This document shows positions 3,338-35,350 of a stretch of DNA of 39,234 bases, piece by piece. Source of the stretch: Bacteroidota bacterium (GTDB lineage: Bacteria > Bacteroidota > Bacteroidia > Chitinophagales > Saprospiraceae). Within the stretch, counting starts at the first letter, position 1; every line of letters begins with the position of its first letter. The stretch is from NCBI GenBank assembly GCA_016234735.1, contig JACRAN010000270.1:1-39234 (forward strand), written 5' to 3'. The notes under the pieces are model-generated. The model was given only the letters and a program-made list of their open reading frames with translations, was not told the DNA's origin and did not search any database. The position numbers and the translations under genes are program-made.

Positions 3338-5938
3338 ATGAGGAAAAAAGCCGACACACCCGCCTCCGGCAAAACTGCCGCATCCAAAGACAAAAAGAAA
3401 AAAGCGAAAAAAATCCCAAAAATCCCCTACCACCGCCAGCCGGAAGACATGACGCTGGAGCAGTGGCAGGCGGCGTTGCGCAGACAGTTCGGGGCGGACA
3501 ACGAGTTCCAGATTTCCAACACCGGCAAACACAAAGTTTTTTCCGATTTCAGCGTGTTCAACCCGGCGACCAAAAACAGCTACCGCGTCGCCATCCGGGA
3601 CGCCAGGGACGGCGGTCACTGCTGCTCCTGTATGGATTTCAAAACCAACCGCCTCGGCACCTGCAAGCATATCGGGGCGACGCTGAAACACCTCGAAGGG
3701 AAGCGGGGCAACAAAAAAATCATAAAGACAAGCTACCGGCAGCCAGGTTCTTCCGTTTGGCTCGACTACCGCAACGGGCGGGAAATCAAGCTGCAAACCG
3801 GCACGGAAAACGAAGCGCAGTTCCGGGAATGGGCGGTCAAATATTTTGACCAAAACGGCGTGCTGCGGGAGAATGCCTTGCCCCGTTTTGAAAAAATAGT
3901 GGAAGAAGGCAGGGCGATTGAACCCAACTTCGAGTGCTACGACGATGCCGTCGAACACATCATCTCCGGGCGGGACCGGCTGCGGCGGCAGGCGTTTTTG
4001 AAAGAAAAATTCTCCGGCGGGGCGAGCGACCCGTATTTCGATAACTTGTTGAAAATCAGCATGTTCCCCTACCAAAAAGAGGGAGCATGGTTCGCCGCCA
4101 ACACAGGGCGCTGCCTGCTCGCCGACGAGATGGGTTTGGGAAAAACGCCCCAGGCAATTGCGGCAGCAGAGCTGCTCCGGCGGGAATTCGGCATCCAGAA
4201 AGTGCTCGTCGTGTGCCCCACTTCGCTCAAGTACCAGTGGAAAAGCGAGATTGAAAAATTTTGCGACAGCAGTGTCCACGTCGTGGAGGGCGCACTCGCC
4301 AAACGCAAGCAGTGGTACGAAAAAGGCGATGCGTTTTTCAACGTCCTGAGCTACCACGTGGTCGCCCTCGATGCCGATTACATCAACCGCATGGATGCCG
4401 ACCTCATCATCCTCGACGAGGCACAGCGCATCAAAAACTTCCGCACGAAAGTGGCGGGCGGCATCAAAAAATTGCAGTCGCCGTACAGTATCGTCCTCAC
4501 CGGCACACCCATCGAGAACCGGCTGGAAGAACTGTACTCCATCATGCAGTTCATCGACCAGTTCAAGCTGCCGCCGCTCTACCAGTTCGTCAACCGCTAC
4601 CAGATCACCAACGAAAATGGCAAAATCATTGGCTACCGGCACCTCCACGAAATCAGCAAAATCCTCAGCGACACCCTCCTGCGGCGCACCAAAAAACAGG
4701 TGGCGCTGCAACTGCCCAAGCGCATGGACAAAAACCTGTTCGTGCCGATGACGAGGGAGCAGATGGAGATGCACACGGAGTTCAGCGACCAGGTTGCCCG
4801 GCTCGTAGCGAAGTGGAAAAAGCTGGGCTTCCTGCCCGAAAAAGATCGCCAGAAACTCCTGATTTTCCTGCAAAAGATGCGGATGGTCTGCGACAGCACC
4901 TGGGTGGTGGACCAACGCACCCGCCACGACACGAAGATTGCAGAGCTGATGAGCATTTTGCAGGAACTCCTGGAAATCGCCGACGAAAAAGCCGTCGTGT
5001 TCAGCCAGTGGGAACGCATGACCCGTCTCGTCGCCAACGAACTCGACGACCTCGGCGTCGGTTACGCCTACCTGCATGGCGGCGTGGACAGTCGCGACCG
5101 CAAGCTGCTGCTTGATAACTTCCGGGACGACCCCGACTGCCGGGTTTTCCTCTCCACCGACGCCGGGGCAACAGGGCTGAACCTCCAGAGCGCAAACCTG
5201 CTCGTCAACCTCGACCTGCCCTGGAACCCTGCCCTGCTCGAACAGCGCATCGCCCGCATCTACCGGCTGGGGCAGGAGCGCAACGTGACCGTCATCAACC
5301 TCATCAGCGCCAGCACCATCGAACAGGGCATGTTGGGCGTGTTGAAATTCAAGGCGAGCATGGCGGAAGGCGTACTCGACCAAGGCGAAGACACGATTTT
5401 CATGAGCGAAGACCGCTTCCGCAAATTCATGGAAAACGTGGAAAACATCACTGGCGGCATTCCCACTCCCGAAGGCGAGCCGGGCGAAAGCATTGTGCCC
5501 GAATCGGAGCCTGCCGACATGGAATCGCCCCGGGAAATCGGGGGAGTTGCGCAGCCGGAAGCGCCCGAAGTGGCCACAACTTTCGTCGGCGACGACGACG
5601 TGCCGCAGCCCGAACGGGAAGCGCCTGCCGAACCCCGGCACCGGACACCAGAGACCTCGCCCCGCCCGGAAGGGGGCGAACGCCAACAGGCAAGTGGCGG
5701 CGGAACGCCTCCCCCCGACGATTTGATTCGGGCAGGCGCATCGTTTTTCTCCGATTTGGCAAAAACACTGTCCGACCCCGGTGCTACGCAGCGGCTCGTC
5801 GCCTCCATCACCCACAAGGACGAGGCGACGGGGCAGACGTTTTTAAAAATCCCGGTGGAAAATGCGGAAGCGGTGCAGAACATGGTGCAGGTGTTGGGAG
5901 GCTTGTTTACGGCGTTCGGGCAGCAGGGGCAACGTTGA
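3338..5938 (+). CDS. SNF2-family DEAD/DEAH helicase with N-terminal SWIM zinc finger
   Basis: An 866-residue protein. The first 30 residues are Lys-rich. A SWIM zinc finger follows (Cys96, Cys98, Cys109, His111 in CCSCMDFKTNRLGTCKH). The SNF2 ATPase core starts near residue 240: motif I DEMGLGKT at 263-270, motif II DEAQ at 360-363, then VLTGTPIENRLEELYS. The second RecA lobe carries FSQWERM, STDAGATGLNLQSA and QRIARIYRLGQ. After about residue 710 comes a Pro/Glu-rich, probably disordered tail and a short helical end. SNF2 proteins translocate on double-stranded DNA and remodel bound proteins; bacterial SWIM-SNF2 proteins are poorly understood and have been linked to RNA polymerase recycling and genome defence. 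The start is the ATG at 3338; upstream in-frame codons do not look coding. The gene is at the left edge of the accessory stretch. Confidence 0.93.
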   Translation: MRKKADTPASGKTAASKDKKKKAKKIPKIPYHRQPEDMTLEQWQAALRRQFGADNEFQISNTGKHKVFSDFSVFNPATKNSYRVAIRDARDGGHCCSCMDFKTNRLGTCKHIGATLKHLEGKRGNKKIIKTSYRQPGSSVWLDYRNGREIKLQTGTENEAQFREWAVKYFDQNGVLRENALPRFEKIVEEGRAIEPNFECYDDAVEHIISGRDRLRRQAFLKEKFSGGASDPYFDNLLKISMFPYQKEGAWFAANTGRCLLADEMGLGKTPQAIAAAELLRREFGIQKVLVVCPTSLKYQWKSEIEKFCDSSVHVVEGALAKRKQWYEKGDAFFNVLSYHVVALDADYINRMDADLIILDEAQRIKNFRTKVAGGIKKLQSPYSIVLTGTPIENRLEELYSIMQFIDQFKLPPLYQFVNRYQITNENGKIIGYRHLHEISKILSDTLLRRTKKQVALQLPKRMDKNLFVPMTREQMEMHTEFSDQVARLVAKWKKLGFLPEKDRQKLLIFLQKMRMVCDSTWVVDQRTRHDTKIAELMSILQELLEIADEKAVVFSQWERMTRLVANELDDLGVGYAYLHGGVDSRDRKLLLDNFRDDPDCRVFLSTDAGATGLNLQSANLLVNLDLPWNPALLEQRIARIYRLGQERNVTVINLISASTIEQGMLGVLKFKASMAEGVLDQGEDTIFMSEDRFRKFMENVENITGGIPTPEGEPGESIVPESEPADMESPREIGGVAQPEAPEVATTFVGDDDVPQPEREAPAEPRHRTPETSPRPEGGERQQASGGGTPPPDDLIRAGASFFSDLAKTLSDPGATQRLVASITHKDEATGQTFLKIPVENAEAVQNMVQVLGGLFTAFGQQGQR

Positions 5939-32204: not shown

Positions 32205-32528
32205 ATGGCCAAGGAATCCTACTTCGAGCAGGTGTACGACGTGGTGCGGTGCATCCCGCACGGGCGCGTGACGACTTACGGCACCATCGCTGATTTTCTG
32301 ACGCTCGGCTCCGCCCGGATGGTGGGCTGGGCGCTCAACCACAGTTTCAGCAACGACGGCGTACCTGCCCACCGGGTGGTGAACCGCAAGGGCGAACTCT
32401 CCGGCAGGAACCATTTCCCCACGCCGACGATGATGCAGGAGCTACTGGAAAACGAAGGCGTGGAGGTGGTCGACGACAAAATTGTGGATTTTGACAAGCA
32501 TTTCTGGAACCCGACAGACGAGTTTTAG
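32205..32528 (+). CDS. Alkyltransferase-like (ATL) DNA-binding protein, MGMT family
   Basis: A 107-residue protein matching the DNA-binding domain of O6-alkylguanine-DNA alkyltransferases: IPHGRVTTYGTIADFL, the helix with the base-flipping Arg38 (SARMVGWALNHS), and VPAHRVVNRKGELSG. The alkyl-accepting Cys of the usual P-C-H-R-V is Ala55 here (PAHRVV), so it cannot remove alkyl groups itself. Such ATL proteins bind alkylated guanine and channel it to nucleotide excision repair. The start at 32205 follows an A-rich stretch. It is divergent from the TrpF-like gene, and its stop codon overlaps the convergent glycosyltransferase gene by 4 bases. Confidence 0.88.
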   Translation: MAKESYFEQVYDVVRCIPHGRVTTYGTIADFLTLGSARMVGWALNHSFSNDGVPAHRVVNRKGELSGRNHFPTPTMMQELLENEGVEVVDDKIVDFDKHFWNPTDEF

Positions 32529-33601
32529 CATCGGTCCAAAAATGCCGAAACCACTGCCGACAACGCTTTTCCATCAAAAAAATCACTTTGCAAACCGCTG
32601 AGTTTTCCGGCGGCCACCAGTCCCCTCTCCAGTTCCAGTTCCGTTTGTTTTTGGGTAAAAAAAACGCCTTCCCGAAAAAATTGGTCGGCCAGGTACTCCT
32701 GCTCGGTCTGCCCGGGTGTCGGCACGAGCAGGGCAGGTTTGCCCAATTTTGCCAAATCCATCACCGTGCTGTAACCCGACCGTCCGACGAAAATGCCACT
32801 GGCCAGCATTGTCTCGTTCAGTTCGGTTGAGGTCATGGAAGCCCGCACTTCGATGTTTTTTTGAGAAAAAAAATGCCCCCGTTCCTCCGGTTTGCCCTGT
32901 ACGATGAGGAAGCGGAAGGGTAGCCTACCAGCCTGTTCCAGGATGGCCGCCTCGAATTTTGTCCGCTGCGGCTCAGGGCCGGAGAGTACGGCAATGACAT
33001 CGTAGCGTTTTTCCACCACCCGGCGTTCCATTCTCGACAGCGCCCCGATGTACTTGACTTTTTTTGGAAAATCAGCCGGTAAGTTGTGCGAAAGTTCCCC
33101 GGACAGATTCTCCGCCCCACCCAAATCGGGCACCCAGCATTCCCCGAAGTTTTTGATAAAAAAATGGTTGAAAAAATTGGCCACCCGGCTCGAAATGGCG
33201 GACGGTGTTTTGATGGCAAGCTGGTGGGTCAGGAAAACGCAGGGGATTTTTTCGGAAAAACAACCGAACCTGTTGTCTGAAATGATGCCGTCGATGCCCT
33301 GCGACTCGACAATCTGCCGGATGGCCCTGTGCTCCCGTCCAATTGCTCGAAGGGTTTTCAGTGATTGTCGGCCCATGTTCCAAACCATGTTGTCCGTTCG
33401 GTAACGGACACCGTACCCCGGCAGGCGCAGGGCCATCAACTTGGGAAACTCTTGCCTCAGCAATTCCAACGCCCTGCCGTCGGAGGCAAGCACGACCTCC
33501 GCTCCCTGCCCACGCAGTTCCCGGATGACGGGGATGCACCGGGCGGCATGTCCCAGCCCCCAATCCAATGGGGCGACCAGAATTTTTTTAGGCTTCGGCA
33601 A
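32525..33601 (-). CDS. GT28/MurG-like glycosyltransferase
   Basis: A 358-residue GT-B-fold glycosyltransferase. The N-terminal domain begins KILVAPLDWGLGHAARCIPV, with the G-L-G-H loop typical of this group, and contains GIDGIISDNRFG. The C-terminal domain holds the nucleotide-sugar site: ASGIFVGRSGYSTVMDLAKL followed by KPALLVPTPGQTEQEYLA. This matches the family of UDP-GlcNAc-type transferases related to MurG, common in Bacteroidota; donor and acceptor are not known, and it is not MurG itself. No membrane segment is evident, so peripheral membrane attachment is expected. Its end overlaps the ATL gene. Confidence 0.85.
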   Translation of the reverse strand: MPKPKKILVAPLDWGLGHAARCIPVIRELRGQGAEVVLASDGRALELLRQEFPKLMALRLPGYGVRYRTDNMVWNMGRQSLKTLRAIGREHRAIRQIVESQGIDGIISDNRFGCFSEKIPCVFLTHQLAIKTPSAISSRVANFFNHFFIKNFGECWVPDLGGAENLSGELSHNLPADFPKKVKYIGALSRMERRVVEKRYDVIAVLSGPEPQRTKFEAAILEQAGRLPFRFLIVQGKPEERGHFFSQKNIEVRASMTSTELNETMLASGIFVGRSGYSTVMDLAKLGKPALLVPTPGQTEQEYLADQFFREGVFFTQKQTELELERGLVAAGKLSGLQSDFFDGKALSAVVSAFLDRC

Positions 33602-33610
33602 GGATTTCGC

Positions 33611-33618
33611 TAAGTTTG
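33611..33618 (+). promoter_or_regulatory. -7 box TAAGTTTG upstream of a small lipoprotein gene
   Basis: TAAGTTTG matches TAnnTTTG exactly and ends 25 bases before the ATG at 33644. At the -33 position the sequence is T-rich (TTTTTTTAGG) without a clear TTG. Confidence 0.6.
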
Positions 33619-33643
33619 TGGTTTCTGAAAATTCAAATCAGCC

Positions 33644-33736
33644 ATGAAAATACGGCGTTGGCAGACATTTTTGCTCCTGATATTAGTCCTCCTCCTGTTG
33701 GTTGGGTGCCGTGCAACCGACTGCAATTGCCCCTGA
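33644..33736 (+). CDS. 30-residue small lipoprotein
   Basis: A short gene with the product MKIRRWQTFLLLILVLLLLV followed by GCRATDCNCP. It has a basic start, a hydrophobic core and a lipobox (LVGC) with the lipidated Cys at position 22, leaving a mature peptide of only nine residues that contains two further Cys. It resembles the small 'entericidin-like' or other orphan lipoproteins in layout, but no family is recognised. A consensus -7 box lies 25 bases upstream and a strong terminator begins right after the stop, so it has the parts of a complete tiny transcription unit on the forward strand between two reverse-strand genes. Confidence 0.65.
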   Translation: MKIRRWQTFLLLILVLLLLVGCRATDCNCP

Positions 33737-33737
33737 A

Positions 33738-33782
33738 AACGAAACGGGGTCCGCCTCCTGAGAAGCGGACCCCGTTTTCGTT
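33738..33782. terminator. Long hairpin terminator after the small lipoprotein and rng
   Basis: A 17-base stem (33738-33754 with 33765-33782, one extra T in the right arm) of GC-rich sequence with A/T ends and a 10-base loop. It directly follows the lipoprotein stop and precedes the rng stop at 33800 on the other strand, so it can end both transcripts. Confidence 0.88.
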
Positions 33783-33799
33783 ATCGTTCAGAACAGGCA

Positions 33800-35350
33800 T
33801 CAATTCAGCCTGATTTCATCGTCCGTGTCGTTGAAAAACTTGTACTCCGACACTTGGTAGCTGTGGTCGGGCTTGATGTGGATCCACTTGTAGTATCGGA
33901 AATACCACTTCATTTGCAGGTTCGGCAGCCCTTTTTTCAGGTAGGCCGCCACGAAAGGATGCGTCTTCAAGGTCATTTTGCCTTTTGAACCTGATTGCAG
34001 GATGAATTTCAAATCCCGCTCGATGTCGTCCGTGACCAACACCGTTGGGGTGACTTTGCCGGTGCCGTTGCAAGCGGGGCAAACCTCAGCAGTGTTGATT
34101 TTGACCTCCGGCCTCACCCGCTGCCGCGTTATTTGCATAAGCCCGAATTTGCTCAACGGCAGGATGGTGTGTTGGGCACGGTCTTTTCGCATCGCCTCGC
34201 GCATCACCTGGAAAAGCTCCTTCTTGTGCTCGTTGTTGCGCATGTCGATGAAGTCGATGGTGATGAGGCCACCGATGTCCCGCAGGCGCATTTGCCGGGC
34301 GATTTCCTCCGCTGCCTCAACGTTGACGTGCAGTACCGCATCCTCCTGGTTTTGGTTGCTCATTTTATGCCCGCTGTTCACATCGATGACGTGCATGGCC
34401 TCCGTCGATTCGATGATGATGTAGGCACCGCTGTTCATGGTGGCGGTTTTACCGAAGGAAGATTTGATTTGACGGGTCACAGCGTAAGTTTCAAAAATCG
34501 GCTTGTTTTTGTTGTGCAATGTCACGATGTCCACTTTTTCCGGGGCGATATTGCCGAGGAAATGGCGGATGTTTTGGTACAACTGTTTGTCGTTGACGAC
34601 GATGCGGTTGAAGGAGTCGCTAAGGATGTCCCGCAGGATGCTGCTCGTTTTGTCCAACTCGCTGAGCAGTTTGGCGGGGGGCTTGGCGCCTTTGAGTTGG
34701 TTGAAAACATCTTCCCACTTTCCCAGCATCATGGCCAATTCTTCGTGCAGGTCTTGCACTCGTTTGCCTTCTGCCGCTGTCCGCACGATGACCCCGAAAT
34801 TTTTGGGCTTGATGCTCTCAATCAGCGTTTTCAGGCGCTTGCGTTCTTCGGCATTGGCAATTTTTTTTGAAACTGCAATGATATCGGCGAAGGGAGTGAG
34901 TACCAGGAATCGCCCGGGAATGGTCAACTCGCAGCTTAGGCGGGGGCCTTTGGTCGAAATTGGCTCCTTCAGGATTTGAACCAAAAGTGGCTGCCGCCGG
35001 GTGACGACCTGATCCATCTTGCCTGTCTTGATGATTTCAGGCTCAAGTTTAAAATTGTCGAGCGAAAAGGTGGTCTGGCTACCGGAAAGTACGCTGTTCG
35101 TGTATTTCAGCAGGGAGCGGAGTTTTGGGCCGAGGTCGGTGTAATGTAAAAACGCTTCTTTTTTGTGGCCAATGTCCACGAAAGCGGCGTTGAGGCCGGG
35201 CATGGTTTTGATGATTTTGCCCAGAAAAATGTCTCCGACCGAGAAGTTATTGTTCGTTTTTTGGTGGTGCAGCTCTACGAGCTTACCATCCTCCAGCAGC
35301 GCAATTTCGACTTCGGTGGGTGTAGAATTGATGATTAATTCCTTTTCCAC
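33800..35350 (-). CDS. rng: Ribonuclease E/G family endoribonuclease
   Basis: A 516-residue RNase G-type enzyme that cuts single-stranded RNA in rRNA maturation and mRNA decay. An S1 domain (about 38-125) contains GDIFLGKIIKTMPGLNAAFV. The DNase I-like catalytic domain holds the metal-binding Asp323 in MHVIDVNSGHK and Asp366 in LITIDFIDMRN, and the zinc link is CPAC at 424-427. The C-terminal small domain is complete, and there is no RNase E-like scaffold tail. The start is GTG at 35350: an in-frame TGA lies nine bases upstream, so no ATG is available. The downstream terminator is shared with the small lipoprotein. The 530-base upstream spacer is unexplained. Confidence 0.95.
   Translation of the reverse strand: MEKELIINSTPTEVEIALLEDGKLVELHHQKTNNNFSVGDIFLGKIIKTMPGLNAAFVDIGHKKEAFLHYTDLGPKLRSLLKYTNSVLSGSQTTFSLDNFKLEPEIIKTGKMDQVVTRRQPLLVQILKEPISTKGPRLSCELTIPGRFLVLTPFADIIAVSKKIANAEERKRLKTLIESIKPKNFGVIVRTAAEGKRVQDLHEELAMMLGKWEDVFNQLKGAKPPAKLLSELDKTSSILRDILSDSFNRIVVNDKQLYQNIRHFLGNIAPEKVDIVTLHNKNKPIFETYAVTRQIKSSFGKTATMNSGAYIIIESTEAMHVIDVNSGHKMSNQNQEDAVLHVNVEAAEEIARQMRLRDIGGLITIDFIDMRNNEHKKELFQVMREAMRKDRAQHTILPLSKFGLMQITRQRVRPEVKINTAEVCPACNGTGKVTPTVLVTDDIERDLKFILQSGSKGKMTLKTHPFVAAYLKKGLPNLQMKWYFRYYKWIHIKPDHSYQVSEYKFFNDTDDEIRLN

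Follow-up and report, generated by a model that had tools for sequence, protein, structure and literature searches.

Layout of the locus

The window analysed here is a stretch of 39,234 nucleotides, positions 1 to 39,234 of contig JACRAN010000270.1 of a Bacteroidota bacterium (Saprospiraceae, Chitinophagales; assembly GCA_016234735.1), and it contains a 30-codon gene for a putative lipoprotein with a mature part of nine residues. The gene lies on the plus strand between two minus strand genes, one for a glycosyltransferase (GT) and the other rng. Its ATG is at 33644, 42 bases from the divergently oriented GT gene, and its TGA at 33734-33736. An earlier reading of this DNA made without database searches (the sequence-only reading) had proposed a complete small transcription unit here, and both its elements and its interpretation are supported, with the qualifications given below for the promoter, the terminator and the neighbour. 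The features are as follows; pN and pS are the proportions of non-synonymous and synonymous differences.

33644..33736, plus strand: tiny lipoprotein gene, an open reading frame (ORF) of 30 codons plus stop with the product MKIRRWQTFLLLILVLLLLVGCRATDCNCP; 12 intact congeneric copies under purifying selection, and relatives across the order and class
33644..33706, plus strand: predicted signal peptide with the lipobox L-V-G before Cys22, assigned from sequence; pN/pS 0.53
33707..33733, plus strand: nine-residue mature part CRATDCNCP, with the lipid Cys codon at 33707-33709 and the CxCP codons at 33722-33733; pN/pS 0.11
33611..33618, plus strand: candidate -7 box TAAGTTTG of the TAnnTTTG type, from the sequence and an enrichment count upstream of family members
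33733..33791, no strand assigned: hairpin after the stop codon, from folding energies and shuffles; probably a two-way terminator shared with rng
32525..33601, minus strand: GT with GT28 C-terminal and GT1-like domains (PF04101, E 2e-10; PF13528, E 1.3e-6), the divergent and conserved neighbour
33800..35350, minus strand: rng, ribonuclease E/G family (PF10150, E 1.4e-98), the convergent neighbour

The product has a basic N-region, a hydrophobic core and MKIRRWQTFLLLILVLLLLVG-C, as judged by eye and by script, which is the arrangement of a lipoprotein signal. The strand of the gene, opposite to both neighbours, its lipobox and its mature part had all been read correctly before; the lipobox is LVGC. 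The gene is apparently present in a single copy in its own genome in profile searches. The next two best matches there were rejected as second members, one being a chance frame (L439) and the other a different small lipoprotein (L440). The latter (G000:C262:5008-5103, minus strand) has about 46 residues and a mature part starting CNKGYGCPNNF without the second paired cysteine, and apparently belongs to a different family.

Protein-coding nature of the gene

Fourteen rng loci were found in the genus, the window included, and 13 of them had at least 500 bases downstream of rng. An intact ORF was present at the same place in 11 of these 13 loci (window included), and a twelfth intact copy was found elsewhere in the congener G003. 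The frame-breaking changes in close relatives that the sequence-only reading had named as the mark of a spurious gene were not seen. When the 12 copies were aligned by codons, the overall pS was 0.76 and pN 0.30, and the nine mature codons gave pS 0.80 and pN 0.09, that is a pN/pS of 0.11, compared with 0.53 for the signal peptide codons; the synonymous sites are near saturation, so these ratios are a rough guide. The pattern C-R-A-x-D-C-x-C-P is conserved among congeners while the signal peptide drifts. This codon pattern is that of a selected peptide, and the gene is a protein-coding gene and not a chance ORF. The small-ORF pattern of a lipobox followed by CxCP gave no non-self match in 1,687,200 strand-bases of 60 neighbourhoods and none in 3140 Markov shuffles. 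Another match to it in the window, ending near 4748 on the plus strand, looks like chance. Taken with the relatives described below, we regard it as almost certain that this is a genuine protein-coding gene of a family of two-cysteine mini-lipoproteins.

The possibility that no functional protein is made, and that the ORF is a leader peptide, part of a non-coding transcript or a chance frame, was considered, since it is small, is followed directly by a hairpin and is known here from sequence alone. The protein-type codon pattern, the kept lipobox and the chance controls make this highly improbable, and as the gene downstream is convergent, there is nothing for a leader peptide to attenuate.

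Promoter and terminator

The -7 box described by the sequence-only reading as consensus, TAAGTTTG at 33611-33618, is of a type for which we take TAnnTTTG to be the consensus. This motif was found within 90 nt upstream of 12 of the 61 members examined, as against 16 of 604 shifted control windows and 84 of 1220 shuffles. Inspection of the sequence upstream of the tiny gene showed no good candidate for a -33 box, and a sigma-70 scan found no promoter-like site for the gene. The -7 box is plausible but unproven because the motif is enriched upstream of members and yet far from universal.

The strong terminator that had also been claimed is present as a hairpin that starts at the stop codon. The region 33730-33800 folded on the plus strand with -35.1 kcal/mol (z -5.64), and none of 200 shuffles was as good. 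It is equally stable on the opposite strand (-40.7 kcal/mol, z -5.89), and therefore probably also terminates the convergent rng. Just 7 of the 12 congeneric loci have a hairpin of -15 kcal/mol or lower that begins no more than 30 nt from the stop codon and is followed by a T-rich tail; conservation is thus weaker for the terminator than for the protein.

Relatives in the order and linkage to a glycosyltransferase

A profile of 13 sequences (E < 1e-3) matched 63 of the 198 genomes of the window's family. In f20, another family of the same order, a single f20 sequence used as query matched 27 of 147 genomes at E <= 0.05, of which 20 read as clear members. All 60 fully read loci contained the signal peptide, the lipobox and C-x(3-9)-C-x-C-P, an intactness that is partly built in because motif-containing profiles had found them. 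The first cysteine, the Cys-x-Cys and the proline were invariant in an alignment of 34 sequences (A2). All 61 members have G, A or S just before the lipid cysteine, and a K or R was present in the linker of all 61 in one count and of 58 of 59 in a second. We define the family by a chromosomal ORF for fewer than 110 residues with a lipobox, a basic linker and C-x(1-2)-C-P/G, placed either divergently from the GT or immediately before feoA or feoB; the window gene fits this with its divergent GT, and the feo context is found in other families.

In the 60 loci and the window together, a divergent GT gene was directly adjacent to the tiny gene in 47 of 61 and in its neighbourhood in 50. The sequence-only reading had suggested looking for similar lipoproteins near rng. 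These do occur within the window's family, and rng is near the gene in just 22 of the 61 loci, all of that family. As it was found in none of the 20 f20 loci, rng was rejected as a functional partner. Of those f20 loci (L103-L122), 19 of the 20 have a co-directional gene right after the tiny one, often within 60 bases, for a conserved protein of 82-97 residues with no Pfam match; it may be in an operon with the tiny lipoprotein.

The linkage was also measured from the side of the GT, a count free of the circularity of motif profiles, as is the FeoB count below. The GT search reached 124 of 129 genomes of the order and 51 of 296 genomes of the phylum, and up to 900 bases divergent from the GT gene were scanned. 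This GT (GLGHATRCIP...PTPGQTEQEY type) is thus nearly universal in the order, and no NCBIfam model reaches its cut-off on it. A strict CxCP pattern was found in 59 of 125 loci of the order and in 0 of 32 outside it. Many of the loci missed by the strict pattern hold variants in the same place, namely CxxCP in the families f2, f3, f11 and f12 and CxCG in f20. With a combined pattern of lipid-Cys, basic linker and C-x(1-2)-C-P/G, the count rose to 75 of 125 in the order and stayed at 0 of 32 outside it (20 of them from f24), and the same-strand control gave 0 of 157. The background of this pattern was three chance-like matches in 1,687,200 control strand-bases. Among the 125 loci, two come from one genome (G813), some are truncated at contig ends, and two (L288 and L219), whose GT anchor looks wrong, were retained and counted as misses. 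The combined pattern misses 4 of 60 known members and the FeoB-linked locus L351, so that 75 of 125, like the 19 of 70 reported below, is if anything low. In a draw of 16 genomes from another order, seven had the GT, and the tiny gene was divergent from it in four of the seven GT loci. Within the window's own family, 3 of 25 GT loci were positive with the combined pattern in this draw, so the GT link is patchy there. A search of the genome contigs with a single GT protein as query confirmed nothing.

Relatives in the class and linkage to ferrous-iron loci

A first phylum-wide profile with the long tail (A2) gave 13 matches out of 392, which on translation were mostly chance, and it was replaced by a trimmed profile (A3, CDCPKF type); the A2 search had led to the f20 form (L067). 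At E <= 0.01, A3 matched 145 of 247 genomes of the class; in many of these the signal peptide by itself probably accounts for the match. Among the 30 loci of the best A3 matches, 28 were tiny lipoproteins by the first script and the other two were found to be members by a looser search. In a phylum draw of 345 genomes there were seven A3 matches at E <= 5e-4, all within the class. A degenerate DNA pattern for KCDCPKFG, searched in the GTDB collection, returned 12 stretches, 11 of which are Bacteroidota ORFs with a lipobox and the twelfth an ORF of Rappaport israeli without one. One of the proteins, from Chitinophagales, is identical to a protein of an f8 genome in the window's order. Both CxC and CxxC spacings of the cysteine pair were seen, and the residue after it is P or G. 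The two-cysteine family is widespread through the class, and few of its members are as short as the window gene.

In several families of the class, the tiny gene is linked to feoAB. Of the 28 class loci, 11 have a co-directional FeoB gene downstream of the tiny gene, and in eight of them FeoA is encoded in between. FeoA and FeoB_N were confirmed by Pfam on one example each, and the MlaE and undecaprenyl-phosphate translocase-like neighbours described below are likewise Pfam-supported. Starting from FeoB, which was present in 126 of 158 class genomes, 70 loci were read, and 19 of them, in 11 families, have a co-directional gene for a tiny two-cysteine lipoprotein upstream; L351, which the combined pattern misses, is a further case. 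The opposite-strand control gave no tiny lipoprotein in the 70 loci. These 70 loci were the 30 best-scoring and 40 hand-picked from the matches in the 126 genomes, the window genome included, and two of them had 500 bases or less upstream. The CxxCP form, for example CGDCPKW or CNDCPKW, accounts for ten of the 19 FeoB-linked genes. In two loci (L434 and L435), the GT, the tiny gene, feoA and feoB stand in one row; such rows tie the GT-bound to the feo-bound form and suggest, without proof, a common descent.

Other arrangements were seen as well. In place of the GT, the divergent gene encodes an MlaE-type permease and is followed by an ABC ATPase gene in L328, L329, L330, L333, L334 and L336 (the ATPase also in L343), and it encodes a PF04018 undecaprenyl-phosphate translocase-like protein in L320, L326, L339 and L347. 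In family f101 (L321, L322, L323 and L327), often without a FeoB match, the tiny lipoprotein is encoded just behind a gene for an exported-looking protein of about 155 residues (HTCYxQWxxAFxARG...).

Comparison with known systems

No Pfam or NCBIfam model reached its cut-off for any family member tested. Close in setting are the PF12669 proteins, which are also tiny, cysteine-rich, membrane-linked and encoded with feo genes in Bacteroidetes. They differ in having more cysteines, in not being described as lipoproteins and in lying downstream of feoB, whereas the tiny genes are found either ahead of feoA or at a distance from feo. For the window protein and 15 relatives (16 members scanned) there was no PF12669 match at E <= 10. 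The tiny gene is upstream of feoB in 19 of 70 loci, for which mainly the upstream side of feoB was read, and beside the GT in the window. FeoC shares with the tiny lipoprotein the small size, a cysteine motif and the association with Feo. The available text of PMC8749426 places both PF12669 proteins and FeoC downstream of feoB, and describes FeoC as a small cytoplasmic Feo accessory of unclear role, encoded downstream of feoAB mainly in Gammaproteobacteria. The tiny protein has a signal peptide, an upstream position and no FeoC profile match.

Small lipoproteins of other kinds gave weak matches. LptM (YifL) promotes the oxidative maturation of LptD according to the available part of PMC10567701. 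The window protein, a small lipoprotein too, matched its NCBIfam model NF047847 with E 0.0041, at 17.2 bits against the required 27.7, over residues 1-22, which run from the signal peptide to the lipid Cys and cover no cysteine pair. The colicin lysis proteins (PF02402) are tiny lipoproteins as well, and the match to them (E 0.069) reached 13.4 against 27 bits over residues 1-24, mostly signal peptide; the window gene, unlike theirs, is in a conserved chromosomal place beside a GT gene and not beside a bacteriocin gene. One member from f3, 57 residues long, matched DUF2633 with E 2e-4 over residues 4-31, again mostly signal peptide, and scored 21.5 bits where 25 are required. The tiny gene is not mentioned in the available text of PMC9478572 and PMC8980893, and a literature search by motif or with feoB, with subscription papers and preprints outside its scope, found no report of the family, which is apparently undescribed.

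A possible role in metal handling and its alternatives

Cleavage and lipidation of the product would take place at Cys22, and a peptide of nine residues would stay at the membrane surface. Across the family, the mature part would begin with the lipid-Cys and a short basic linker; a close cysteine pair comes next, then Pro or Gly, and the tail beyond is absent or runs to as much as tens of residues. The two free thiols would be the working part and form a soft-metal site, most likely for Fe(II), which could capture or buffer the metal at the envelope for ferrous uptake, the direction of this transfer being one that we infer. The tiny lipoprotein would then be the exported equivalent of those accessory peptides of Feo that are rich in cysteine. 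We give this metal mechanism for a lipid-anchored dithiol peptide a probability of roughly 0.4. Three points favour it: conservation falls on the lipid Cys, on the cysteine pair and on the Pro or Gly after it; the pair tolerates both CxC and CxxC spacing, as soft-metal sites do; and among the identified neighbours no transport or metabolic pathway other than iron uptake recurs. The more specific proposal, that Bacteroidota have in this family an exported accessory to Feo, which loads Fe(II) outside the inner membrane or at the outer membrane and in this order has moved from feo to the GT, is in our view somewhat doubtful.

Several observations count against an iron role. The best FeoB of the window genome (L380, G000:C251:8072-10172) is encoded on another contig with no feoA or tiny lipoprotein upstream, no FeoA being found in the 1500 bases upstream, and the five FeoB loci from f1 and f20 had no tiny lipoprotein. 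By the combined pattern, 51 of the 70 FeoB loci are without the tiny gene. FeoB is not enriched in genomes with a profile match at E <= 1e-4 (29 of 35, compared with 126 of 158 overall, from lists read by eye), and at least four genomes (G828, G844, G863 and G878) have a profile match and no FeoB match; G904 and G929 are also missing from the FeoB match list and are presumed to have been in the genome draw. Since genomes without FeoB carry the family and its FeoB rate is that of the background within error, it is not an obligate part of Feo. The divergent neighbours (GT, MlaE-type permease, undecaprenyl-phosphate translocase-like protein) include no iron genes. The proposed homology of the CxCP, CxxCP and CxCG forms would rest on place and design, with no significant alignment between them.

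The chief rival to metal binding is a thiol-disulfide role, in which the pair would cycle between dithiol and disulfide and aid disulfide formation or rearrangement in an envelope partner. CxC and CxxC are spacings of redox-active pairs as well, which suits this role, and the occurrence of the family without FeoB is easier to explain by it. There would also be an analogy with LptM, serving LptD maturation by another mechanism. No thiol-redox gene recurs among the neighbours identified, however, and the LptM match spans the signal peptide only and is below the cut-off, and we consider this role rather unlikely. That the lipoprotein is a partner in envelope glycan synthesis, either co-regulated with the divergent GT or serving its pathway, is suggested by the constancy of the GT as a neighbour, which no other gene in the order equals (75 of 125), and by the tiny gene lying at four of seven GT loci of another order; the other divergent neighbours, MlaE and the translocase-like protein, have envelope-lipid functions too. 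This appears distinctly unlikely, as the 32 GT loci outside the order (20 of them f24) carry no tiny gene, class members stand beside feoAB without the GT, and a shared divergent promoter region can hold unrelated genes together. If only the lipid anchor and the basic linker mattered, the product could be a small structural or membrane-stress lipoprotein, in favour of which stand the basic linker, kept in all 61 members of one count and 58 of 59 of the other, and the very short mature part; but the cysteine pair with Pro or Gly contains the best-kept residues and the mature pN/pS is 0.11, which leaves this improbable.

The proposal of an exported Feo accessory would, if true, place the product among the smallest metal-handling lipoproteins, as an envelope-side answer to what stands in for FeoC outside Gammaproteobacteria. 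The family to which this 30-codon gene, under the usual annotation limits, belongs is conserved widely, has a two-thiol motif that hardly varies and shows two strong links in its genomic setting. In Bacteroidota it is a testable candidate for a component that acts on the envelope side in ferrous-iron uptake or in thiol chemistry, and the minimal lipoprotein of the window has a mature part that can be synthesized whole as a peptide.
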